In this document: positions 39,580 through 51,291 of the stretch, in pieces
Numbering within the stretch: position 1 is the stretch's first letter
How the letters are laid out: each line of letters begins with the position of its first letter
NCBI GenBank assembly: GCA_938075585.1
Contig: CALJHG010000004.1
Location: 73,311-124,601 of the forward strand
Direction: 5' to 3'
Source of the DNA: an uncultured Gammaproteobacteria bacterium
GTDB taxonomy: Bacteria; Pseudomonadota; Gammaproteobacteria; Ga0077536
Length of the DNA stretch: 51,291 bases
Program-made: the position numbers and the translations under genes
The notes under the pieces: model-generated
What the model saw: the letters and a program-made list of their open reading frames with translations, nothing else
Databases searched by the model: none
What the model was told of the DNA's origin: nothing

Positions 39580-39960
39580 TTAGGACCAATTCTTGGTTAA
39601 GGTAGCTATCCATATTCCAAGCGTACCAATAATCGCTACAAATACAGCGGCTGCACCAAAGTCTTTGGAGCGACCGATCAGTTCATCGTTTGCAATGGAA
39701 ATTTTGTCGCAGATGGCTTCGATAGCGGAATTGATTAGTTCAATTATGATTAGCAAGAGCAATGAACCAATTAAAAGTACATAGTCTATTAAAGTATTAC
39801 CAATTAGCCCAGCTAGAGGAATTCCAAAAAGTAAAATATAAATTTCTAATCGAAAGGCGTCTTCGTGTTGCCAAGCAAGTTGGAGGCCTTTTATAGAATA
39901 ACCAAATGCGTTTTTTAGTCTGGCAATTCCGTGTGGTTTGGAGCGGGACACATTAATCAT
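39580..39960 (-). CDS. dgkA: Diacylglycerol kinase
   Basis: DgkA is a small trimeric membrane kinase that recycles diacylglycerol to phosphatidic acid. After an amphipathic N-terminus (RLKNAFGYSIKGLQLAWQHEDAFRLEI) it has three transmembrane helices and the active-site signature ELINSAIEAICDKIS followed by KDFGAAAVF, which is diagnostic. ATG 39960 gives 126 aa, close to the 122 aa E. coli enzyme. The frame is open to a GTG at 40032, but a TATAAT (minus strand, 40021-40016) lies inside that extension, so it is probably promoter DNA. It is divergent from lexA. Confidence 0.93.
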   Translation of the reverse strand: MINVSRSKPHGIARLKNAFGYSIKGLQLAWQHEDAFRLEIYILLFGIPLAGLIGNTLIDYVLLIGSLLLLIIIELINSAIEAICDKISIANDELIGRSKDFGAAAVFVAIIGTLGIWIATLTKNWS

Positions 39961-40015
39961 AGGATTTGGGAGCGTTGTTTGTTCAAGGTTTGCCAAATAG
40001 ACTACTAACTTTACT

Positions 40016-40021
40016 ATTATA
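40016..40021 (-). promoter_or_regulatory. Candidate -10 element for dgkA
   Basis: On the minus strand a perfect TATAAT lies about 55 bases before the preferred dgkA ATG. No good -35 is evident. Confidence 0.35.
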
Positions 40022-40090
40022 GCGCAAAGCACTGATGTAACTATAGTTTACTATATTGACTACTTACGTACGATTTTATTTGATGTGTAA

Positions 40091-40150
40091 TTATCTTGTA
40101 TAAATAAAAATACTGTATATAATAACAGTATGTTTATTTATACAAGATAA
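40091..40150. repeat. 60-bp inverted repeat centred on the LexA box; lexA promoter
   Basis: The outer 18-base arms, 40091-40108 (TTATCTTGTATAAATAAA) and 40133-40150, are exact reverse complements. Over the whole 60 bases 26 of 30 pairs match. The dyad centre (40120.5) is also the centre of the LexA box. TTGTAT at 40096-40101 and TATAAT at 40118-40123, 16 bases apart, form a good promoter for lexA. By symmetry a weaker promoter reads towards dgkA. Confidence 0.85.
40113..40128. promoter_or_regulatory. LexA (SOS) box
   Basis: CTGT-ATATAATA-ACAG matches the gammaproteobacterial LexA consensus CTGT-N8-ACAG exactly, with an AT-only core. It covers the -10 element of the lexA promoter, so LexA binding would block its own operon and with it imuA and imuB. 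Confidence 0.92.
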
Positions 40151-40156
40151 TTTACC

Positions 40157-40774
40157 GTGACTTCATCACTGACATCTAGACAACAAGAAATTTTTAGCCT
40201 TATCAAAAGGCACATTAAGAGAACTGGTATGCCGCCAACGCGAGCAGAGATCGCAACGCACTTTGGCTTTCGGTCCGCTAATTCGTCTGAGGAACATCTG
40301 CGTGCGTTGGCGCGAAAGGGTTTTATCGAGTTGATTCCAGGCACGTCAAGAGGAATTACACTAATAGAAGATGACCCTTTCGATAGTTACAAAATACCCG
40401 TTGTTGGACAGGTCGCTGCAGGACATCCTGTATTAGCTATCGAGCATATAGAGCAATATTGTTCTGTTGATCCTTCAGTATTTCATACACGTCCGGATTA
40501 TTTACTTCGCGTCAAAGGGGATAGTATGCGCGACGCGGGTATATTAGATGGGGATTTACTTGCCGTAAAATCCACACGAGATATAACAGATGGACAAATT
40601 ATTGTTGCCCGCATTGATGATGAGGTTACTGTGAAGCGATTTAAGAGAATCGGTTCGATTATTCACTTATCCGCCGAAAACCCTATATTCCCGACAATAA
40701 AAATTGATTTAGATAAAGTAGATTTCTTTGTTGAAGGTCTAGGCGTTGGTGTTCTTCGAGTCGAAGTGTTGTGA
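40157..40774 (+). CDS. lexA: LexA repressor
   Basis: LexA is the SOS repressor that cleaves itself when stimulated by RecA filaments. At 205 aa, the N-terminal winged helix has PPTRAEIATHFGFRSANSSEEHL. The cleavage site is Ala88-Gly89 in VVGQVAAGHPVL, the catalytic Ser123 is in GDSMRDAG, and Lys160 is in DEVTVKRF. The GTG start at 40157 has no clear Shine-Dalgarno. It heads a lexA-imuA-imuB operon (GTGA and ATGA overlaps) and carries its own LexA box upstream. This may be the main LexA or a second copy dedicated to the cassette; the window cannot tell. Confidence 0.95.
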   Translation: MTSSLTSRQQEIFSLIKRHIKRTGMPPTRAEIATHFGFRSANSSEEHLRALARKGFIELIPGTSRGITLIEDDPFDSYKIPVVGQVAAGHPVLAIEHIEQYCSVDPSVFHTRPDYLLRVKGDSMRDAGILDGDLLAVKSTRDITDGQIIVARIDDEVTVKRFKRIGSIIHLSAENPIFPTIKIDLDKVDFFVEGLGVGVLRVEVL

Positions 40775-41430
40775 AAAAAAATGAAATTTTTCATGATGGA
40801 GTTAGTTTAACTTATGGTGATACACTTACTACTAATAAAGAAACCTACTCAAGTACTTTTGACGACTTAGATCGGGCACTACCCGACGGTGGATGGCCCC
40901 GCGTTGGGATAACCGAAATTCTAATCCCCACTATAAATGCAAATGCTTTGCGTCTCTTACTTCCGGCGTTGGCAGAAATCAGTAATAAAAGATGGGTTGT
41001 TTTGGTCAGCCCTCCATACACTCCTTTTTCCTTAGCATGGAGACAAGCTGGTGCTGATGTCTCTAAAATTTTAGTTGTTGATTTACCAGAATCTGATTCT
41101 AGTAATAGAACAAATATCCTTTGGGCTTATGAACAAGCATTAAGATTCGATGACTGTGGTGCTGCATTATTTTGGGGAGACGAAATGAGTACCGTGGAAC
41201 TGCGTAAATTATACCTTGCTGCAGAGATGGGAGACACGTGGGGTATTGTTTTTAGATCTATTAAGTTTGCGAATTACTCTTCTCCTGCATCTTTACGAAT
41301 ACGGTTAGACGCATTACCACCAAGTAAATGCCATTTTACTCCGGATAATCTATCGTCAACAAAACTCAAAGGAACCATTATTAAGGGTTCTAGCTATTCG
41401 ATAGGACAACAGTTTTTATTAGAAATATGA
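40771..41430 (+). CDS. imuA: ImuA-like translesion synthesis protein
   Basis: ImuA is a RecA/SulA-related protein of the damage-inducible ImuA-ImuB mutasome. At 219 aa it has LDRALPDGGWPRVGITEIL near the N-terminus, the family signature, followed by RWVVLVSPPYTPFSLAWRQAG and VLWAYEQALR-like features. It starts with a GTG overlapping the lexA stop, and its own stop overlaps the imuB ATG, so expression is tied to the LexA box upstream. Confidence 0.85.
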   Translation: MKKNEIFHDGVSLTYGDTLTTNKETYSSTFDDLDRALPDGGWPRVGITEILIPTINANALRLLLPALAEISNKRWVVLVSPPYTPFSLAWRQAGADVSKILVVDLPESDSSNRTNILWAYEQALRFDDCGAALFWGDEMSTVELRKLYLAAEMGDTWGIVFRSIKFANYSSPASLRIRLDALPPSKCHFTPDNLSSTKLKGTIIKGSSYSIGQQFLLEI

Positions 41431-42980
41431 ACTCTGATTCATTAGTAGCTTCTTCGACAAAAAATAATTTGTCGTTTGATACTGAAAAGAATAAAAGAAC
41501 CAACTGCCCACAATTTATCGGAAGCACGGAGAATTTGTGGGTTTATTTATATTTTCCTTACTTTTCAATCGAGGTTTTGGTAGGCAATATGATTGCTAAA
41601 CAGCCGTGTGCCTCAGTTACAAAAATTAAAGGAATTATCACAGTAGAGGCAGCCAACCCCCAAGCTGAGGCATTAGGTATAAAGTCGGGGATGTCTGTGC
41701 AGTCGTTTTATATAAATGAACGGGTAAAGCTTTTAAAGCGCAATCAGGAAGTAGAGTACTTCGCTTTAGAATCTCTGTGCGACTGGGCCTTAAAATTTAC
41801 TCCGAGAATGTCAAAGGTAGGCTATCAAGGACTTTTACTTGAAGTTAAGGGAAGTCTGAAATTATTCGGCGGGATCGGAAGTCTTATGAAGCAGATGGTG
41901 ACTGAGTTGAAGTCCTTAGGTTATAGGCCTGAGTTCGCCGTCGCTCCGACACCTTCTGCTGCTGTTATGCTTTGTAAAGATAAGCCTAATGTAGTCATAG
42001 CAGATAAAACGAATTTAAAAAAAGTATTATCTATAACTTCTGTTACAGCGTTATTAATTAGTCATCAAGAGAAAAAAAATCTTAGAGATTTAGGCGTACG
42101 AAATTTAGGCGACTGTAGACGCCTCCCTCGGATTGGACTGAGAGAAAGATTGTCATCTGATTTTGTAGACATGTTAGATTGCTTGTTTGGCGATAAGCCG
42201 GAGTGCATAGAAGAGTTTACTCCAAGAAAATTTTTTGAATCTACTTTCTGTTTTTCCAGTGAAGTGATGGAAATTAAATCAGTGACACATGCGGCCCAGA
42301 ATCTTTTACGCGACTTAAAGCTTTATTTATTCCGAAGACAAAGTATTCCCTCTCGATTAATTTGGCGGCTAGAAGGTAACGATAACCATCGAGATTTTTT
42401 ATCTATACGTTGTGACGATAGTGCGAGTCAAGAGTCGATTATAAAACCATTGGTCAGCTATCTATCGAAACGGAAACTAGCAGGTAGGTATTTGTCTTCT
42501 CTTGGATTGAAAGTACTTGATGTGCCAAAAGATTTGAGTACTAGAATGGATTTCTTTAGCAGTAAATTCAGGGGAGAGAAGATTGCAGGATACGAAAGTC
42601 TTGTTTCCGGGCTAAAGAGAAGATTGGGAGAGAATGCTATTTATTTTTTAAAAGAAGGTTCTTCATATGAGGCTGAAGATAACTGTTCTCGAAGAAGTAT
42701 TAGTAGTCATCGGTTAAGTCCTACTTCTCACTACCATCCTGAAAGGCCGTTATGGCTGGTTAAAAAGCCTGTAAAACTTCCGGTTACCAATCGATGGCCG
42801 GAGTATCAAGGCGTATTAATGATTAAATTAGAGCGTGAGCGTATTTTAACTAATTGGTGGGAAACTAATATGATTGCTAGGGATTATTTTATAGCATCTA
42901 CTGCTTGCGGGCGACGCATTTGGATATATAAAGAGTTAGGTGTCTTAGATAGTTGGTACTTACGGGGAATTTTTGACTAG
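41427..42980 (+). CDS. imuB: ImuB, Y-family polymerase-like protein without catalytic residues
   Basis: ImuB resembles DinB-type polymerases but acts as a hub that recruits other polymerase parts to the sliding clamp. At 517 aa, the N-terminal motif that carries the first metal-binding Asp in active enzymes reads NLWVYLYFPYFSIE, with no Asp. The second motif reads GLLLEVKGSLKLFGG instead of S-x-D-E. Both are expected for ImuB. The C-terminal part includes the ImuB feature HPERPLWLVKKPVKL. A dnaE2 gene, the usual third member, does not follow; the next 314 bases hold no gene, and then the lipid cluster starts. Confidence 0.88.
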   Translation: MNSDSLVASSTKNNLSFDTEKNKRTNCPQFIGSTENLWVYLYFPYFSIEVLVGNMIAKQPCASVTKIKGIITVEAANPQAEALGIKSGMSVQSFYINERVKLLKRNQEVEYFALESLCDWALKFTPRMSKVGYQGLLLEVKGSLKLFGGIGSLMKQMVTELKSLGYRPEFAVAPTPSAAVMLCKDKPNVVIADKTNLKKVLSITSVTALLISHQEKKNLRDLGVRNLGDCRRLPRIGLRERLSSDFVDMLDCLFGDKPECIEEFTPRKFFESTFCFSSEVMEIKSVTHAAQNLLRDLKLYLFRRQSIPSRLIWRLEGNDNHRDFLSIRCDDSASQESIIKPLVSYLSKRKLAGRYLSSLGLKVLDVPKDLSTRMDFFSSKFRGEKIAGYESLVSGLKRRLGENAIYFLKEGSSYEAEDNCSRRSISSHRLSPTSHYHPERPLWLVKKPVKLPVTNRWPEYQGVLMIKLERERILTNWWETNMIARDYFIASTACGRRIWIYKELGVLDSWYLRGIFD

Positions 42981-43294: not shown

Positions 43295-45073
43295 TTGAAT
43301 AAAAATAATCAGATTCCCATGCAAGTTACGCCGTTAAATAGTGCATTACCATTGAGAAATGCCTCATTTAATACTTTGACCGACGCGCTTGAATACGCTG
43401 CGAGGGGAGATACAGGTTACAATTTCTACGATGGCCGTGGGGACTTGTCGAGTGTTCTTAGTTACAAAGAATTACGTACCGAAGCGAAACTACTCGCGGG
43501 TAAGCTCTTGGGACTGGGTTGTCGACGCGGTACACGAGTCGCTATCGTGGCTGAAACTGATCCGATGTTTCACAGGTTCTTTTTTGCTTGTCAGTATGCA
43601 GGTTATATTCCGGTAGCATTACCCGCGGGATTTCAGATAGGTGCTCGAAAAGCCTACGTAGAGCAACTGGAACGAATGTTAGATAGCTGCGGGGCTGACT
43701 TGGCTGTTGCGCCGGAATCTCATATCGGTTTTCTAAAGCAGGCCGTAGAGCGGTTAAATTTAGTCAAAGCTGGGACCCCTGAAGAATTCGATTCCTTGAG
43801 TAAGACCAATATCTCGATGCAGCCGTTAGATCAAAATGATATCGCGTACTTGCAATACACATCAGGCAGCACGAGGTTTCCTCGCGGAGTAGAAATATCT
43901 CAAAATGCTGTGATGACAAATTTACGTGATATTGCAGTGCATGGACTGAGAATAAGTGAAAGCGACAGAATGGTTTCTTGGTTGCCTTTATACCATGATA
44001 TGGGTTTGGTGGCGTTTGTTTTATTGCCTCTTGGTAGCCAGCTTTCAGCTGATTATTTGAGTCCGCGCACATTCGGTATGCGGCCACGTTTGTGGTTGAA
44101 GTTGATATCCCAAAATCGTGGGACGATTTCCTCGAGTCCGCCGTTTGGATATGCGCTGTGCGCAAAACGCCTTCGCCTGACTGATCAAGATCGATATGAT
44201 TTAAGTTCTTGGAGAGTTGCATGTGTCGGAGCAGAAAGGATTCATCCTGAGCCGCTTAGACAATTTGCGCATGTTTTAAAAGCTGCGAATTTCGATGCAA
44301 AGGCTTTTGTAGCTTGCTACGGGATGGCTGAGTGCGCATTAGCCATTAGCTTTGAAGAACTCGATGTTGGTATAACTTCGATACAGGTTGATAAAGATAG
44401 TATGTCGAGAGAAGGTCTAGTCAGACCCTTAGATGATAAGCACGCGGATGGGCTTAATTCTTTGACCTTCGTTGACTGTGGGAAAATTTTGCCGAGTTTT
44501 GAAATGGCGATTCGAGATGACGCTGGAGATGATCTGCCGGATTATCAGTGTGGTCGTATATGCTTGAGAGGACCCAGTGTCATGACTGGTTATTTTCAAA
44601 ATCCTACCGCCACTGACGAATCACTTTCTAAGGAGGGTTGGCTAGATACTGGTGACATAGGGTATCGAGTCGGTGACAACGTCATAGTTACCGCGCGTCG
44701 TAAGGATGTGATTATTGTCAATGGACGTAATATTTGGCCGCATGATCTAGAGTATCTGGCTGAGACGCTTCCAGGAGTTCGGTTCGGTAATGTTTCTGCA
44801 TTTTCATTTGCTGATGACACGGGATCTGATCAAGTTGTTATGGTAGTAGAGTCGAGAGAGTCGAATCCAGCAAAAGTGCGAAGCTTAATTAATGAACTGT
44901 CTGGTTTGATATCGAAAAATTTTGGGATGGCCTGTCATATAGATCTTGTGCCTCCTAGGACTCTCCCCAGAACCTCTTCGGGAAAACTTTCACGTTCAAA
45001 AGCGAAGCAAGACTTTTTAGCGCGCTTGGAAGTTATTGACAATGATACACAGGTTATAAGCGCCAACGCTTGA
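43295..45073 (+). CDS. Fatty acyl-AMP ligase / acyl-ACP synthetase (sphingolipid type)
   Basis: This adenylate-forming enzyme is expected to activate a fatty acid and load it on the ACP encoded two genes on. At 592 aa, the motifs in order are YLQYTSGSTRFPRGVEIS (phosphate loop, with Arg instead of the usual Lys), SWLPLYHDMGLVAF, YGMAECALAIS, WLDTGDIGY, KDVIIVNGRNIWPHDLE and the final LPRTSSGKLSRSKAK with the catalytic Lys. The SWLPLYHDMG and NIWPHDLE patterns are typical of FAAL enzymes and not of acyl-CoA synthetases. TTG 43295 has GGAG upstream; ATG 43319 is the alternative. It is first in a four-gene operon matching AasR of the Caulobacter ceramide locus. Confidence 0.88.
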   Translation: MNKNNQIPMQVTPLNSALPLRNASFNTLTDALEYAARGDTGYNFYDGRGDLSSVLSYKELRTEAKLLAGKLLGLGCRRGTRVAIVAETDPMFHRFFFACQYAGYIPVALPAGFQIGARKAYVEQLERMLDSCGADLAVAPESHIGFLKQAVERLNLVKAGTPEEFDSLSKTNISMQPLDQNDIAYLQYTSGSTRFPRGVEISQNAVMTNLRDIAVHGLRISESDRMVSWLPLYHDMGLVAFVLLPLGSQLSADYLSPRTFGMRPRLWLKLISQNRGTISSSPPFGYALCAKRLRLTDQDRYDLSSWRVACVGAERIHPEPLRQFAHVLKAANFDAKAFVACYGMAECALAISFEELDVGITSIQVDKDSMSREGLVRPLDDKHADGLNSLTFVDCGKILPSFEMAIRDDAGDDLPDYQCGRICLRGPSVMTGYFQNPTATDESLSKEGWLDTGDIGYRVGDNVIVTARRKDVIIVNGRNIWPHDLEYLAETLPGVRFGNVSAFSFADDTGSDQVVMVVESRESNPAKVRSLINELSGLISKNFGMACHIDLVPPRTLPRTSSGKLSRSKAKQDFLARLEVIDNDTQVISANA

Positions 45074-45087
45074 TATAGGCTAGAAAG

Positions 45088-45990
45088 TTGCACATTATTT
45101 TAACTGGCGGAACCGGATTTATCGGAAGCCAGTTGCAACAATTTTTGGTTTCTTCTGGTCATACAGTCGTGGTGTACACCAGAAAACAGCGCGGCAGAAA
45201 CGCCAATATCCTAGCAAGTTGTTCTAGTGTCCAAGGTTCGCTTACTGATTCGGAGAAAATTAACAGATTAATGTCTGAGTGTGATCTCGTGATTTATTGC
45301 GCTGGTAGCGTCCGAGGTGCGCGGCCAAAAGATTTCTTTCAGGCAAATGTAGCTGGTCTAAAGATATTTGGTGAGGCTTTGGCGAAATCTGGAGGTCGTA
45401 TGTTGCTCATATCATCATTAGCAGCGGAACGGCCACATCTCTCTGACTATGCGAATACTAAGTACCTTGGTGAAACCGTTCTTGAAAGTATAGAAGGTCT
45501 GCATTGGTGTATTCTGCGTCCGCCGGCGGTCTATGGCGCGTCTGATACTGAGCTGAGACCTTTATTTAAACTGATGAATCGAGGTATTGCATTAATTGTT
45601 GGACCAAAAGACCAAAGACTATCGTTGCTACATGTCGATGATTTAGCTAGAGCGGTGTGTATGGTAGTTAGGTCGTCATTGGCTTTTAAGAGTCGGAAGA
45701 TGACACTTCATGATGGCAAAGAGGGTGGCTATCTTTGGAGCGAGATCGTTAAGTCTGTGAGACCTCGTGGAGTGACTATCACGATACGCTTGCCGCAAAT
45801 TATCTTGATTTGCTTCGCGAAAATAAACATGCTTTTTGCTTCTATTTTTGGATACCTGCCTATGCTTTCACCTGGTAAAGTCAGGGAACTTTCGGAAACC
45901 GCTTGGGTCTGTGATAATGCCAAGATTAGTGAGGTATGTGACTGGGAACCGCGTGTAAATCTTCAGCAGGGTATGCGGAAAATTCTGTAA
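45088..45990 (+). CDS. NAD-dependent epimerase/dehydratase family reductase (CerR-like)
   Basis: An extended short-chain dehydrogenase of 300 aa. The dinucleotide motif is TGGTGFIGSQL at the N-terminus, and the catalytic set is Ser in LLISSLAA with Tyr and Lys in DYANTKYLGE. VIYCAGSVRGA and RPPAVYGASD also fit the family. Between an acyl-ACP ligase and an ACP-SPT pair, it corresponds by position to CerR, the epimerase-type enzyme that reduces the 3-keto group in Caulobacter ceramide synthesis; that role is inferred from context. The start is TTG 45088, 14 bases after the ligase stop. Confidence 0.85.
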   Translation: MHIILTGGTGFIGSQLQQFLVSSGHTVVVYTRKQRGRNANILASCSSVQGSLTDSEKINRLMSECDLVIYCAGSVRGARPKDFFQANVAGLKIFGEALAKSGGRMLLISSLAAERPHLSDYANTKYLGETVLESIEGLHWCILRPPAVYGASDTELRPLFKLMNRGIALIVGPKDQRLSLLHVDDLARAVCMVVRSSLAFKSRKMTLHDGKEGGYLWSEIVKSVRPRGVTITIRLPQIILICFAKINMLFASIFGYLPMLSPGKVRELSETAWVCDNAKISEVCDWEPRVNLQQGMRKIL

Positions 45991-46022
45991 AAACTTTAAC
46001 AATATTTCGGTGATAGAATTAG

Positions 46023-46274
46023 ATGACACATGCAAAAATTGTGACGCGACTAATTGAACTTCTTGAGAGTTTAGTTGCTAGTGTCGAAAACTTTGATCAA
46101 GAAACTGCGCTAGTTGGAGATGCTGGCTTGGAGTCAATTCAGGTTATTGAATATTTGTGCGAGGTCGAAGATGATTTTGATATAGTTATCGACGAGGAAG
46201 CTCTTTCTTATGTGAATACAGTTGGGGATCTCGCAGAAACTATTTTGAAAATTAATCTTGGTAAATCTTCATGA
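46023..46274 (+). CDS. Dedicated acyl carrier protein
   Basis: An 83 aa acidic four-helix carrier protein. The phosphopantetheine attachment Ser38 is in GDAGLESIQVIEYL (LES instead of the common DSL), and the C-terminal helix is TVGDLAETILKI. It is not the fatty-acid-synthase AcpP. It overlaps the SPT gene by 4 bases, so the two are coupled, as with AcpR and SPT in Caulobacter. Confidence 0.9.
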   Translation: MTHAKIVTRLIELLESLVASVENFDQETALVGDAGLESIQVIEYLCEVEDDFDIVIDEEALSYVNTVGDLAETILKINLGKSS

Positions 46275-47449
46275 GTTTATTTGAAAAGTTTTCTCAAGCT
46301 CGCGCATTAGAGCAAGCGCTGATGGAAATGCCAATCAATCCGACCGGTACTATTATTAGCGAAGTCGTGTCTGCCTCCGAAGCGATAATTGGCGGCCAAC
46401 TGAAGATAATGGCAGGTACGAATAATTATTTAGGCCTTACGTTTGATGCTGACTGCGTGGCCGCAGGACAACAAGCTCTGCTTGAGGCCGGCACAGGTAC
46501 CACTGGATCTCGTATGGCTAACGGTACGTATCAGCAGCATTTGGATTTAGAGATAGAGATTGCAGAATTCTTTGATTTATCCCATGGGATGGTTTTTTCG
46601 ACTGGTTATTCGGCCAATATCGGAATGCTAACTGCACTTCTCAATACTGAGGACTCGGTACTTATTGATTCCGAAGGACACGCTAGTCTCTTCGACGGGT
46701 GTCGAATGAGTGGTGCAAAAATATATAGATTTAAGCATAACGACCCAGAAGGTCTGCGCAAGAGACTGAGCAGATTGGGGGAAGCAGGTAAAGATGCTCT
46801 TATTGTTGTAGAGGGACTTTATAGTGTTCGAGGTGACTGCGCGCCGTTAAAAGAATATGTAGACGTCAAAAACGAGTTTGGAAGTTATTTGATGGTAGAT
46901 GAGGCTCATTCACTTGGCCTATATGGAGAAAATGGTCGCGGTTTGGCTGAAGATCAAGGTGTAAGTGACGAGGTAGATTTTGTAGTTGGAACCTTCAGCA
47001 AAAGCCTTGGTTCGATTGGGGGTTTCTGCGTAAGTAATCATCCGGAGCTAAGTCTAATTCGTTACGCAAGCAGGCCATATATTTTTACGGCATCGCCGTC
47101 TCCATCGGTTATAGCGACGACTAGACAGGCTTTAAAAAAGATTAAAAATTGCCCTGAATTGCGACAAATAGTTTGGTCAAATGCGCAACTCTTACACTCT
47201 GGCTTGTCTAAACTTGGATTTCAAATAGGGGCAGACGTCAGTCCTGTGATTGGAATCCCTTTTGAAGATAGAGAGGTTGCTCTTACTTACTGGCAGGATT
47301 TATTTAATAAAGGAGTTTATACAAATCTAATATTACCGCCAGCAGCTCCAGATGGCGGGAGTTTGATCCGTTGCAGTGTGACCGCGGCGCATAGTAAGGA
47401 GCAAATAAGAGTCATACTAGACGCCTTCGACGCGATTAAAAATGGTTGA
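46271..47449 (+). CDS. Serine palmitoyltransferase-like alpha-oxoamine synthase
   Basis: A PLP enzyme of the alpha-oxoamine synthase family, most likely serine palmitoyltransferase: serine plus acyl thioester gives a 3-keto long-chain base, the committed step to sphingolipids. At 392 aa, GTNNYLGLTFDADC and GTGTTGSRMANGTYQQH are conserved, SEGHASLFDGCRMSG contains the PLP-stacking His, LMVDEAHSLGLYG has the PLP Asp and His, and GTFSKSLGSIGGF has the Schiff-base Lys. The relatives BioF, Kbl and HemA are possible on fold alone; the ACP and acyl-ACP ligase neighbours, and absence of bio genes, favour SPT. Confidence 0.87.
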   Translation: MSLFEKFSQARALEQALMEMPINPTGTIISEVVSASEAIIGGQLKIMAGTNNYLGLTFDADCVAAGQQALLEAGTGTTGSRMANGTYQQHLDLEIEIAEFFDLSHGMVFSTGYSANIGMLTALLNTEDSVLIDSEGHASLFDGCRMSGAKIYRFKHNDPEGLRKRLSRLGEAGKDALIVVEGLYSVRGDCAPLKEYVDVKNEFGSYLMVDEAHSLGLYGENGRGLAEDQGVSDEVDFVVGTFSKSLGSIGGFCVSNHPELSLIRYASRPYIFTASPSPSVIATTRQALKKIKNCPELRQIVWSNAQLLHSGLSKLGFQIGADVSPVIGIPFEDREVALTYWQDLFNKGVYTNLILPPAAPDGGSLIRCSVTAAHSKEQIRVILDAFDAIKNG

Positions 47450-47481: not shown

Positions 47482-48378
47482 CTACTTAAATCCACCTCGT
47501 CGAAAAATTTTCCAGATAAGGGGCCACGAGAAGATAAGTGGGTATTTGAGTTGTAACGCAGTAGCATTTTCTTTTATCCCAGTGTGTCTTTCTATTTTCC
47601 AAAGTAAATATTCAAGAGGCTGGTTAAATGTGCTTGTCGCTTTCAGTAGACGGGCTATTGATAAAAAGATTCCAAGTGTCCTTCGGGCCTTCCATCGTAA
47701 TTTAGTTTTGAGACGATATTTATTAGAGCATTCGAAAGTCCATTCATTATTTCCTGCTGTTGATAGTCCTAAAGTATCTGAGTGTTCAGTAACTTTTGAC
47801 TCAAAGTAGTCTTGATGGTGCTTCACTATTAGAGTTATTTTATCCTGACTTTCCGCCCTTAGCTCGGCTCCATAGGTAAGGGTTAGCGCCGTTTCCCACA
47901 ATTGTGTACTAGTGAATGATTTCGGAGACATACCTAATGCTTCTCTCATCATTCTTTTTTCTGACGACCCAATAAGGATATTTAAAGTATTCTGAACTTT
48001 TTCATTTTTCACATAAAGAATACTGCAGGGTTGACTGAAACGCGCCCATAGATAAGGGTGGAATCCTGTTGTTGTTTTTTTTTCAAGGTGCTTTAGTGAG
48101 ATAGTTGCGTATTTAGCACTGCATTGCACGTTTCGTTTTGAAAGACCTAATTGATATACATTTGGTTCGAGTAACTGATTAGCTACTTTTTGCCAGACGG
48201 AGGGGAGTTTGTCGTAATCAGTGAAAATAACGTAGAAGTCTGGGAGTGTGTCTCGTTTTCCACGAAGCCACGAACCATAAAGTATCACAGCTTCGACATT
48301 ATCACCGTATTTTTCTATTATTGCCGCTAGGAACTCATCGGGCCACCAATCTTCAAGGGGTTGGTTGCTAAGAGTCAT
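47482..48378 (-). CDS. Nucleotidyltransferase-fold protein with altered active site
   Basis: A 298 aa protein with an N-terminal minimal nucleotidyltransferase motif: AVILYGSWLRGKRDTLPDFYVIF has the G-S pair (35-36) and an Asp at 47, but the second metal-binding acid two residues on is Tyr 49. The rest (about 100-298) is alpha-helical with basic stretches (RLKTKLRWKARRTLG) and a hydrophobic C-terminus, perhaps membrane associated. I do not recognise a named family for the C-terminal part. Its start overlaps the CDP-alcohol transferase gene by 11 bases, so they form one operon convergent to the SPT operon. A role in head-group chemistry is inference. Confidence 0.65.
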   Translation of the reverse strand: MTLSNQPLEDWWPDEFLAAIIEKYGDNVEAVILYGSWLRGKRDTLPDFYVIFTDYDKLPSVWQKVANQLLEPNVYQLGLSKRNVQCSAKYATISLKHLEKKTTTGFHPYLWARFSQPCSILYVKNEKVQNTLNILIGSSEKRMMREALGMSPKSFTSTQLWETALTLTYGAELRAESQDKITLIVKHHQDYFESKVTEHSDTLGLSTAGNNEWTFECSNKYRLKTKLRWKARRTLGIFLSIARLLKATSTFNQPLEYLLWKIERHTGIKENATALQLKYPLIFSWPLIWKIFRRGGFK

Positions 48379-49552
48379 AGGCTTGTTTGGTTTGAGAAAA
48401 CGTTTTGAATGCTTTAGGGGATAGCTCTGCGGCGCGGGGATCTTGCAGCCAAGATTTTAGGTGACCTTCGCTCACTCGCACAAAGACTGCGTAGGTCAGT
48501 CTGAAAAAAAGTAGGACTGTACAGATCAAAGTCCATCCGACCACACTAATAAATCCCAAAGACGGTTGGCCCCGTATGGTAGCTACCGTGAGAATGACTA
48601 AGCATGGGTTTCGTCGTGCGACGAATAGTCTAAAATACGCGTCGACTGGCCTCCACGCGAACAGCGAACAGTTTCCCAGTCCTTCAAATAATCCTTCCGC
48701 GATACGGCCCCCTATGTATGCGCAAATCATTACAATGCTGAGGTCAGAAAGACTGTAGCCAAAAAGAGAAGTAGTTCCTGATAAGCCGATGCCCCAATAA
48801 AAGTACCATATTGGTGGGTGAATAATATCCATGCCATGATCCAAAATGTGTCCTGCTTTGCTAGTGCACTCGGTGATACGTGCTAATTTACCATCAACAG
48901 TATCCAGTAAAGTCATGACCCAACCGCTGACAAGTCCCAAGGCAAATAACCCTTTTGCAAAACATACAAGTGCGAGCAGCATTAGCAATGCCCCAACTAT
49001 AGTGACAATGTTTGGTGTGATACCGAACTGCACACATAACCTGACTATAGTTTTTGCAGGGCGGGGCCACCACCACTTAGTCACAAAATCAGTTATTCCT
49101 TTGTAAGAATTTCCGTACAGTAGAGATTCCAGCTCCTCGACCGAAAAACTTGGGATATGTTTTAGTAACGGAGGCTTCGATCGTCTGAGTTTATCATTAT
49201 ATTGTTCAAGTTTGGCTTGCTTATTACCTATAATTTGGGGGGGCGCGATAGAACCAACGGTCTGTTTATTTTGCTCGATTTTCCCAATGTCACATTTGAG
49301 AGCTGCAATGATATGCGTATCATCGCAAATCAGGAATTCAGAACTCGATTCGACGAAATTTCTAATAGTGTGGGCATCGAACATAAAGTTTGAGTCGATT
49401 AATAATACTAAGCTTTCAGGACTTTCTGTAAGCGAGCATTCGGAGGATAACGGGATATTTATAGAAGCCAATTGTTTCTGGATTCGATCTGCAGACTTAA
49501 GTCCCCACAGGACCGTACGGTTGTCGGAGACTATTGTGGCAGATTGGGACAT
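48368..49552 (-). CDS. CDP-alcohol phosphatidyltransferase with extra N-terminal domain
   Basis: A 394 aa membrane enzyme. The CDP-alcohol phosphotransferase signature D-x2-D-G-x2-A-R-x8-G-x3-D-x3-D is complete at residues 217-242 (DTVDGKLAR ... GHILDHGMD), within about six membrane segments from residue 170. The first 165 or so residues are soluble; VLWGLKSADRIQKQL and SLVLLIDSNFMFD look like a degenerate MobA-type nucleotidyltransferase domain, as in bifunctional inositol-phosphate cytidylyltransferase fusions, but the usual glycine-rich loop is missing. It would transfer a phospho-alcohol from a CDP donor to a lipid or polyol. Next to an SPT operon, a phospho-sphingolipid head group is a plausible product; this is inference. 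Confidence 0.82.
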   Translation of the reverse strand: MSQSATIVSDNRTVLWGLKSADRIQKQLASINIPLSSECSLTESPESLVLLIDSNFMFDAHTIRNFVESSSEFLICDDTHIIAALKCDIGKIEQNKQTVGSIAPPQIIGNKQAKLEQYNDKLRRSKPPLLKHIPSFSVEELESLLYGNSYKGITDFVTKWWWPRPAKTIVRLCVQFGITPNIVTIVGALLMLLALVCFAKGLFALGLVSGWVMTLLDTVDGKLARITECTSKAGHILDHGMDIIHPPIWYFYWGIGLSGTTSLFGYSLSDLSIVMICAYIGGRIAEGLFEGLGNCSLFAWRPVDAYFRLFVARRNPCLVILTVATIRGQPSLGFISVVGWTLICTVLLFFRLTYAVFVRVSEGHLKSWLQDPRAAELSPKAFKTFSQTKQAYDS

Positions 49553-49637: not shown

Positions 49638-50492
49638 ATGCGGATTATACATTTAACCGATCCTCACTTGACTACCTTGCCTAGTTTTGCTGCAGGTAGG
49701 TTTTTATTTAACAAACGTTTTCTTGGCGCAATGTCTTGGTCACGTAGGCAGAAGTATCACCTTAGATCGCAGTTAGATCTCTTGGTGAAAGATATTAGGT
49801 TGGAAGCTCCTGATTTGCTTATATGTACTGGAGATTTGGTGCAAATAGGAACGGAGGCGGAAATTATTCAGGCGAAAGATTGGCTTGATGAACTTGCCAG
49901 TATATGCAGGGTAATTTTAGTTCCTGGTAATCACGACTGTTACCAGCGAGAGTCATATCAATTAATCGAGAGATATTGGAGTCCTTATTTTTTTCAGGAA
50001 CGTCACAAAGATCAAGGGTTCCCGAGTATTTTTCAGCATCAAGGAATCACTTTTATCGGACTCTGCTCCGCTCAGGCCGAGCCTTTTTGGTCTGCTAGAG
50101 GTATGTTGGGAGGAGAGCAACTAGAAAAATTGAAATCTATTTTGGAAACAAGTTCTGATACTTTTCAGTGTATTTTCCTGCATCACCCGCCGGTGCCTGG
50201 TATGTGCGCGAAGCGAAAGTCGTTGAGAGATGCAATTTTACTCTCTCATTTGCTGAAAGAGCAAAATGTTCAGATGGTTTTGCATGGGCACGTTCATCAA
50301 AATCAAATTTACACTGCGAATGAGCGTACTAAAGTATTTGCCACTGCCTCTGCTTCCAATGTGGCAGGACATGCGCCTGCATCGTATAGATTATTTGAAA
50401 TTAAAGCTGGAGGTCGTGACTGGGAGGTTTTAGCATCGCTTAAGGTTTTCGGTTCTTCGATAACAAAGGAACTTACACGACATTCTTGGTAG
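49638..50492 (+). CDS. Calcineurin-like metallophosphoesterase
   Basis: A 284 aa phosphoesterase with the full two-metal motif set: MRIIHLTDPHLT (D-x-H), ICTGDLVQIG (GD), VPGNHDCYQRE (GNHD), IFLHHPPVPG and VLHGHVHQNQ (GHxH). It resembles the class III cyclic-nucleotide phosphodiesterase-like branch by eye, but the substrate is not readable. It is divergent from the CDP-alcohol transferase across 85 bases, so it may belong to the same lipid pathway, for example removing a phosphate from a precursor. That link is inference. Confidence 0.87.
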   Translation: MRIIHLTDPHLTTLPSFAAGRFLFNKRFLGAMSWSRRQKYHLRSQLDLLVKDIRLEAPDLLICTGDLVQIGTEAEIIQAKDWLDELASICRVILVPGNHDCYQRESYQLIERYWSPYFFQERHKDQGFPSIFQHQGITFIGLCSAQAEPFWSARGMLGGEQLEKLKSILETSSDTFQCIFLHHPPVPGMCAKRKSLRDAILLSHLLKEQNVQMVLHGHVHQNQIYTANERTKVFATASASNVAGHAPASYRLFEIKAGGRDWEVLASLKVFGSSITKELTRHSW

Positions 50493-50514: not shown

Positions 50515-51291
50515 TTAGATTTTTTTAGTATACTGAATAGCAAGTAATAGAATTATGATCGGAGGTACCAAGACAGACATAGCCGGGCTCAGTTCGAGTA
50601 GTGCCGCCAAGTGGCCTGAGATCTGTTGAAGTAGATAAAAAATAATTCCGATGGCTCCAGCCAAAAGACTTCTGGAGCTAGTTGAACGGAATTGAACAGA
50701 TGATAGGGCGATAGGAACACCTATTAAAGCCATGGCAACCAGCATTAGAGGGAAGGCCAGTCGCTGCCATAAAACTAGCTGATGTGTCCGGGTGCCTACT
50801 CCATCATTTTGATTTGTCCTAATGTACTTGATTAGATCGAACGTCGACAACGCGCGCGGAGGAGTGACTAAGGCACCTAATTGATCAGAGGTAAAAAAGC
50901 TTTTCCATGTTAAAGACGGCAAGGTTCTCTTAGAAGGAGCTTCGACTGAATTTAGCCTAGTTTCTGTAACATTTTTAAGCTCCCATAGCCCGTCCGAACG
51001 GATCTGTGCATTTTCAGCTCTAATGGCTCTCAGGACATTACCAGATTGAGATAGCTCGTAGATTTCTAGTGCACCGACTATATTATCGGAAGCAAACGCT
51101 TCAATCCTGATCAATTGATTATTTTTCTTGCTCCAAAACCCGTCAGCAGTGTAATTCGTCTGCTCTAATATATACGCTTTGATTCGTTGAGCTTGTTGTT
51201 CGGTGGAGGGCACTACATAGTTCTGCGCAAGAACTGCTAATAAAGAGATAGCAAAGGTTACATAAACTATTAATTTAGAAAAGGATATGAC
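50515..51291 (-). CDS. lptG: LPS export permease LptG, 5' truncated by window edge
   Basis: LptG is an inner-membrane permease of the LptB2FG complex that extracts LPS for transport. The frame is open to the right edge of the window, so the apparent GTG at 51213 is not the start. The visible part includes a membrane segment (LIVYVTFAISLLAVL), NYVVPSTEQQAQRIKA, the periplasmic jellyroll with GLWELKNVTETRL, PRALSTFDLIKYI, then the C-terminal helices (LVLWQRLAFPLMLVAMALIG and after). By homology about a third of the protein (N-terminal helices) is missing. It is convergent to the metallophosphoesterase. Confidence 0.92.
   Translation of the reverse strand, partial: VISFSKLIVYVTFAISLLAVLAQNYVVPSTEQQAQRIKAYILEQTNYTADGFWSKKNNQLIRIEAFASDNIVGALEIYELSQSGNVLRAIRAENAQIRSDGLWELKNVTETRLNSVEAPSKRTLPSLTWKSFFTSDQLGALVTPPRALSTFDLIKYIRTNQNDGVGTRTHQLVLWQRLAFPLMLVAMALIGVPIALSSVQFRSTSSRSLLAGAIGIIFYLLQQISGHLAALLELSPAMSVLVPPIIILLLAIQYTKKI

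Follow-up and report, generated by a model that had tools for sequence, protein, structure and literature searches.

In Caulobacter crescentus, the ceramide kinase CpgB (CC_1160) makes ceramide-1-phosphate (PMC10331486), CpgD (CC_1152) has been identified as a CTP:phosphoglycerate cytidylyltransferase (PMC12275187), and a CDP-diacylglycerol (CDP-DAG) synthase domain was noted in CC_1161, with the suggestion that it could activate ceramide-1-phosphate (PMC11324152). The enzymes that build the backbone, namely the acyl ligase AasR, the acyl carrier protein AcpR and serine palmitoyltransferase (SPT), have been characterised biochemically from Caulobacter and from Escherichia coli BL21, in a work that also lists YghO as the orthologue of CC_1154 (PMC9386255), and two further gammaproteobacterial clusters have been described, in Azotobacter vinelandii and Pseudomonas luteola (PMC11324152). 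The order in which the bacterial ceramide synthase (bCerS) and the reductase CerR act is disputed (PMC11087976). Here we analyse a ceramide operon, and the larger sphingolipid cluster to which it belongs, in an uncultured gammaproteobacterium (assembly GCA_938075585.1), starting from a 51,291-nucleotide stretch of contig CALJHG010000004.1 (positions 73,311 to 124,601), referred to below as the window. A ceramide operon in gammaproteobacteria is of an already published kind; what is new is a headgroup module that lacks the ceramide kinase and keeps the enzyme presumed to act next, of which no description was found in the literature searched, subscription papers being mostly outside it. The organism is probably marine, as we take from the sample names.

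The segment 43295-47449 encodes AasR, CerR, AcpR and SPT in that order, an assignment that was confirmed, since open reading frames, family models and motifs all agree. The spacing is 14 bp between aasR and cerR and 32 bp between cerR and acpR. The genes acpR and spt overlap by 4 bp (ATGA); the sequence-only reading had described this overlap when it proposed a single operon. AasR passes the fatty acyl-AMP ligase model NF006624 (733 bits, cut-off 600), contains an AMP-binding domain (PF00501, 1.5e-55) and shares 44% identity with its E. coli-type and 46% with its P. veronii counterpart; CerR matches the Epimerase/short-chain dehydrogenase family (PF01370, 4e-26) at 36-38% identity to its counterparts of the E. 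coli type and from P. veronii, and AcpR (PP-binding, PF00550, 8.5e-7) is 38% identical to the E. coli-type protein. The characteristic motifs are intact in all of them: YTSGST in AasR, GGTGFIG and YxxxK (YANTK) in CerR, the conserved serine of GLES in AcpR, and GTFSKS (with Lys244), DEAHS and HASLFDGC in SPT. Relatives whose loci are complete keep the same gene order even where SPT identity falls to 74% or lower, so that the arrangement is not due to chance, and the match to the Caulobacter order named in the sequence-only reading is borne out by CC_1165-CC_1162 (PMC11324152).

The pyridoxal phosphate-dependent enzyme (46271-47449) passes the curated SPT model NF047599 (571 bits, cut-off 500) and stays below the cut-offs of all the other models compared: the BioF model gives 313 bits (cut-off 426), and the cut-offs are 460 and 493 for Kbl and 338 for 5-aminolevulinate synthase (ALAS). 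Its best matches in the PDB are bacterial SPT structures (2x8u and 2jg2, 1e-117), the top eight scoring about 390-396 bits, and Kbl, BioF and ALAS structures reach at most 218 bits. In a maximum likelihood tree of 53 rows, from which HemA/ALAS was left out and judged by model score alone, the protein lies in a 43-row clade (100/100) together with SPT from Roseomonas, Sphingomonas, P. veronii and B-type E. coli; E. coli BioF and Kbl, one BioF of the Bacillota and a paralogue from the own genome fall outside it. Placement with BioF or Kbl had been named beforehand as what would overturn the assignment, and both tree and scores put the enzyme elsewhere. That it could be a BioF, Kbl or ALAS enzyme of an unrelated fatty-acid operon, an idea favoured by the common superfamily and by the BioF score, is therefore practically untenable, all the more because its neighbours together with bCerS make up the ceramide set, and this identity was rejected. 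An alpha-oxoamine synthase using another amino acid, such as cysteate or alanine, and leading to sulfonolipids or 1-deoxy sphingoid bases, shares the fold family as well, and the cysteate C-fatty acyltransferase 28eh does appear among the PDB matches; however, its 185 bits compare with 396 for SPT, and with the SPT cut-off passed and the protein inside the clade of E. coli-type and Sphingomonas SPT, this reading is very improbable. The ceramide-backbone interpretation holds on gene identity, gene order and SPT phylogeny, and the operon is very probably the backbone part of a proteobacterial phosphosphingolipid cluster.

The window ends where its contig (C4) ends, inside this larger cluster. 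When placed on a close relative (L003, 95% SPT identity), C4 and another contig of the same genome, C53, abut with a 10-bp gap, and the four genes that follow spt up to the end of the window belong to the same cluster as the ceramide operon. The order up to the join is aasR-cerR-acpR-spt, a Tam41-like gene, a CDP-alcohol transferase gene, a metallophosphoesterase gene and lptG2, which continues on C53, where lptF2, an LptA-like gene, cpgD, an OlsC/LpxO-like hydroxylase gene, a CC_1153-like nucleotidyltransferase gene, bCerS and a cupin gene follow. The genome thus encodes all five ceramide genes, four in the window and bCerS on C53. The sequence-only reading was right that bCerS lies outside the window and wrong in expecting it elsewhere in the genome, as it belongs to this very cluster, a short way beyond the end of C4. 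The L003 protein shares 45% identity with E. coli YghO and 38% with its Roseomonas counterpart at the CC_1154 position; no NCBIfam bCerS model matches, and the predicted structure, with a mean confidence (pLDDT) of 47, was too poor and was not used. The same cluster, whole or in part, was present in all the SPT-positive genomes of the family that were read.

The correspondence with Caulobacter was established through Roseomonas as intermediary, using the Roseomonas proteins and the published gene order, since the Roseomonas cluster follows the order of CC_1166-CC_1152 (PMC11324152) except for aasR and cerR. The three window proteins are 30, 32 and 32% identical to those at the CC_1161, CC_1159 and CC_1158 positions, and, taking window and L003 proteins together, homologues of CpgD (CC_1152), CC_1153, CC_1159, CC_1158 and CC_1161 are present at 28-42% identity, those of CpgD and CC_1153 being on C53. 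These headgroup genes are collinear with their Roseomonas counterparts and with the order CC_1168-CC_1152 of Caulobacter. The five best Foldseek matches of the Tam41-like protein are all Tam41 (top 8.1e-5), obtained from a low-confidence model (pLDDT 60), and in the CC_1159-like protein the CDP-alcohol transferase motif DxxDGxxARx8GxxxDxxxD is present in full.

The gene that is missing from this set is the kinase. DAGK_cat, the fold of CpgB (CC_1160), gave no match in the own genome (1.95 Mb, searched with family profiles plus some selected stretches), and control genomes did match. A search of the GTDB family, in which genomes with an SPT over the cut-off were counted as SPT-positive, found no DAGK_cat in any of the 15 SPT-positive genomes of genera g1, g4, g6, g7, g8 and g10, which form a single SPT clade (100/99). 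This clade has no detectable CpgB-type ceramide kinase and has kept the Tam41-like enzyme presumed to act next. In other gammaproteobacterial clusters the kinase gene usually adjoins the Tam41-like gene (eight loci), so that a Tam41-like gene without the kinase is, among the genomes read, peculiar to this clade. Among the SPT-positive members of the family only genus g9 (four genomes) has a DAGK_cat kinase, which lies beside the cluster, and these genomes lack DgkA, a small integral-membrane lipid kinase. In the five g9 loci the cluster is differently arranged and the SPT groups with that of another family (G154); since the 15 kinase-less genomes form one SPT clade and the g9 SPT lies elsewhere, two or more acquisitions of the cluster by the family are probable.

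How this clade would obtain its headgroup can be explained in two ways, which we consider about equally likely. DgkA could have taken the place of CpgB by non-orthologous replacement, the rest of the Caulobacter-type route being unchanged, which is possible although somewhat doubtful. A single DgkA was found in the genome, within the window, and it is a candidate source of ceramide-1-phosphate: DgkA occurs in 15 of the 15 kinase-less genomes of the family and in none of the four g9 genomes, and, when SPT-positive genomes of the family and of the sampled rest of the class are taken together, in 18 of 18 without DAGK_cat against 9 of 22 with it, a count that leaves out the borderline genome G300, includes one that is 75% complete (G369) and counts some DAGK_cat proteins that are not CpgB. 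In addition, ceramide is a substrate of the E. coli DAG kinase in vitro, and the enzyme is used to assay ceramide (PMC2743360). Nevertheless, DgkA normally serves in the recycling of DAG, and because the kinase-less genomes belong mostly to one clade, and so represent few independent events, the anticorrelation is suggestive only (the contrast at genus level is weak, p about 0.02). The nearness of dgkA to the cluster was also considered and rejected as evidence, because the arrangement dgkA-lexA-imuA-imuB (39580-42980 in the window) is an old one in the family that is also found in three SPT-negative relatives; in several SPT-positive genera the sphingolipid cluster stands directly downstream of imuB.

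Alternatively, ceramide would be made but its headgroup would be added by a route other than the Caulobacter phosphoglycerate one, with the CC_1159-like enzyme transferring CDP-glycerate, the product of CpgD, directly to the 1-OH of ceramide, or with another headgroup altogether. This is rather unlikely when taken by itself, although the lack of DAGK_cat in the own genome and throughout the clade argues for it, as does the CDP-alcohol transferase with its full catalytic motif, matching CDP-alcohol enzymes that use hydroxyl acceptors, and two relatives (G022 and G023) keep the Tam41-like and CC_1153-like genes without CC_1159 or CpgD homologues in the stretch read. On the other hand, every kinase-less cluster in the family that was followed beyond spt retains the Tam41-like gene. 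An enzyme of the Tam41 type should require a phospholipid as its substrate, and this points to ceramide-1-phosphate still being formed. Several observations weigh against the main reading, a ceramide backbone with a phosphoglycerate-type headgroup. CpgB starts headgroup synthesis in Caulobacter, so that its absence makes a phosphoglycerate headgroup uncertain; the two homologues lacking in G022 and G023 are a further point; the bCerS protein has no Pfam match, a GNAT match coming from its Roseomonas homologue only; and the genome is 92% complete. On balance, a headgroup of the phosphoglycerate type is slightly favoured. We tentatively suggest that the clade may build phosphosphingolipids without CpgB, either by means of DgkA or free of any kinase through the CDP-alcohol transferase or the Tam41-like enzyme, and that LptF2/LptG2 with the LptA-like protein may act as a dedicated exporter beside that of lipopolysaccharide (LPS).

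The pathway may then be pictured as follows. Gene identity, order, motifs, phylogeny, the second LptF/LptG pair and the absence of a detectable CpgB-type kinase are read from sequence, and the reactions, the headgroup, the transport and the substitute for the kinase are what we infer. AasR would load a free fatty acid onto AcpR, and SPT would condense the acyl-AcpR with serine to 3-oxo-sphinganine, which N-acylation by bCerS and reduction by CerR would convert into dihydroceramide. The ceramide would be phosphorylated, with DgkA as candidate kinase, unless the kinase-free route operates instead, and the ceramide-1-phosphate could be activated by cytidylyl transfer through the Tam41-like enzyme; phosphoglycerate would be transferred from the CDP-glycerate made by CpgD (PMC12275187), and trimming would fall to the CC_1158-like phosphoesterase. 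The CC_1159-like CDP-alcohol transferase and the CC_1153-type nucleotidyltransferase would likewise take part in adding the phosphoglycerate-type headgroup. The OlsC/LpxO-like enzyme, of the aspartyl/asparaginyl-hydroxylase type, may 2-hydroxylate the acyl chain of the ceramide; its gene lies at 2749-3501 of C53 (17778-18533 in L003), scores 205 bits with the OlsC model (cut-off 450) and was found in those kinase-less clusters that were read far enough. Finally, LptF2/LptG2 and the LptA-like protein would deliver the lipid to the outer membrane, in parallel with LPS.

In an LptF/LptG tree of 35 rows, the LptG encoded at the end of the window groups with the LptG2 proteins of the family's clusters (100/100), and a second copy in the genome, on contig C70, groups with the LptG of E. 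coli K-12 and of an SPT-negative relative. The window gene was therefore ruled out as the housekeeping lptG, which is the copy on C70, and it should not serve as a marker of LPS, as it had in the sequence-only reading; the coexistence of LPS and sphingolipids proposed there is nevertheless likely, because LpxC and a separate LptF/LptG pair were found in the genome. Within the GTDB family, counting split genes once, all 19 SPT-positive genomes have at least three LptF/LptG genes, four in all except two incomplete ones, and the 17 SPT-negative genomes have at most two over the cut-off. This clean split, with a second pair in the former and none in the latter, gives family-level support to the proposal that the paralogues export sphingolipids, and such a role for LptF2/LptG2 is reasonably probable.

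Table 1. Genes of the sphingolipid cluster and the candidate lipid kinase (positions in the window unless a contig is given).
Feature	Position	Strand	Description
aasR	43295..45073	+	592 aa; TTG start, GGAG upstream; specialised fatty acyl-AMP/acyl-ACP ligase predicted to load AcpR
cerR	45088..45990	+	300 aa; SDR/epimerase-type 3-oxo-sphinganine or oxo-ceramide reductase
acpR	46023..46274	+	83 aa; dedicated acyl carrier protein
spt	46271..47449	+	392 aa; serine palmitoyltransferase, AcpR-dependent, proteobacterial type
CC_1161-like	47482..48378	-	cytidylyltransferase of the Tam41 type, a proposed CDP-ceramide synthase; 30.6 bits with Pfam Tam41_Mmp37 (cut-off 24)
CC_1159-like (CpgA)	48368..49552	-	CDP-alcohol phosphatidyltransferase with N-terminal extension; PF01066; best PDB matches are PIP (phosphatidylinositol phosphate) synthases
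CC_1158-like	49638..50492	+	metallophosphoesterase; PF00149 7.6e-18
lptG2	50515..51291	-	LptG paralogue of the sphingolipid cluster; PF03739 1.2e-43; cut by contig end, N-terminus on C53
bCerS	C53:4299-5432		roughly 5 kb inside the adjoining contig; shares 96% identity with its L003 counterpart
dgkA	39580..40032	-	PF01219 8e-28; small integral-membrane lipid kinase

An MsbA-like ABC transporter (ABC_membrane plus ABC_tran), which may flip the sphingolipid, recurs in other gammaproteobacterial sphingolipid clusters (L027:11233-12987 and eight further loci) and is absent from the cluster of the window genus. As regards distribution, the earlier remark that sphingolipids are rarely described in gammaproteobacteria was overstated: apart from the assayed BL21 enzymes and the two described clusters, of 369 genomes sampled from the class, 21 have an SPT over the cut-off, and 4048 of the 5426 complete E. 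coli genomes (75%) contain cerR-acpR-spt at a query coverage of at least 80%. In one E. coli locus (L026:5576-18546) the ceramide genes lie between glcC and pitB. In K-12 MG1655 an IS5 element stands between yghO and yghQ, where other strains have the segment from aasR to lptF; with its cluster interrupted in this way and the genes carried by most E. coli, K-12 is not representative. The plasmid pDCB2 of Diaphorobacter sp. JS3051, a conjugative IncP plasmid, carries aasR-acpR-spt and a CpgD-type gene, with genes for a cytochrome P450, a non-ribosomal peptide synthetase and a phosphopantetheinyl transferase nearby.

The kinase-less module exposes an unassigned step in bacterial phosphosphingolipid synthesis and yields a short list of candidate genes. 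The E. coli BL21 (B-type) locus consists of the same four-gene operon (ECD_02850-02854) plus yghO, the bCerS gene (PMC9386255); its SPT is 54% identical to that of the window, and LptF/LptG paralogues adjoin the operon as they do here, whereas the E. coli locus read contains YghQ, YghR, YghS and YghT instead of Tam41-like, CC_1159 or CpgD homologues. The clusters of A. vinelandii and P. luteola, likewise gammaproteobacterial, are contiguous for ceramide and headgroup genes and are reported to have at least 13 of 17 genes, without CC_1158, CC_1166, CC_1167 and CC_1168 (PMC11324152), whereas in the cluster studied here a homologue of CC_1158 is present and CC_1160 is missing. Compared with Tam41, the mitochondrial and bacterial CDP-DAG synthase, the Tam41-like enzyme is alike in Pfam family and fold, the two aligning structurally at about 15% identity, and its substrate would be ceramide-1-phosphate rather than phosphatidate. 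With respect to the C. crescentus cluster CC_1168-CC_1152 (PMC11324152, PMC10331486, PMC12275187), the present one differs in having no detectable CpgB-type ceramide kinase and in its additional OlsC/LpxO-like hydroxylase and LptA-like genes; a flippase-type gene occurs in the clusters of some relatives, and the window genus has none in its cluster. Both share the order aasR-cerR-acpR-spt and, as judged through Roseomonas from position and sequence, homologues of CC_1161, CC_1159, CC_1158, LptF2, LptG2, bCerS, CC_1153 and CpgD.

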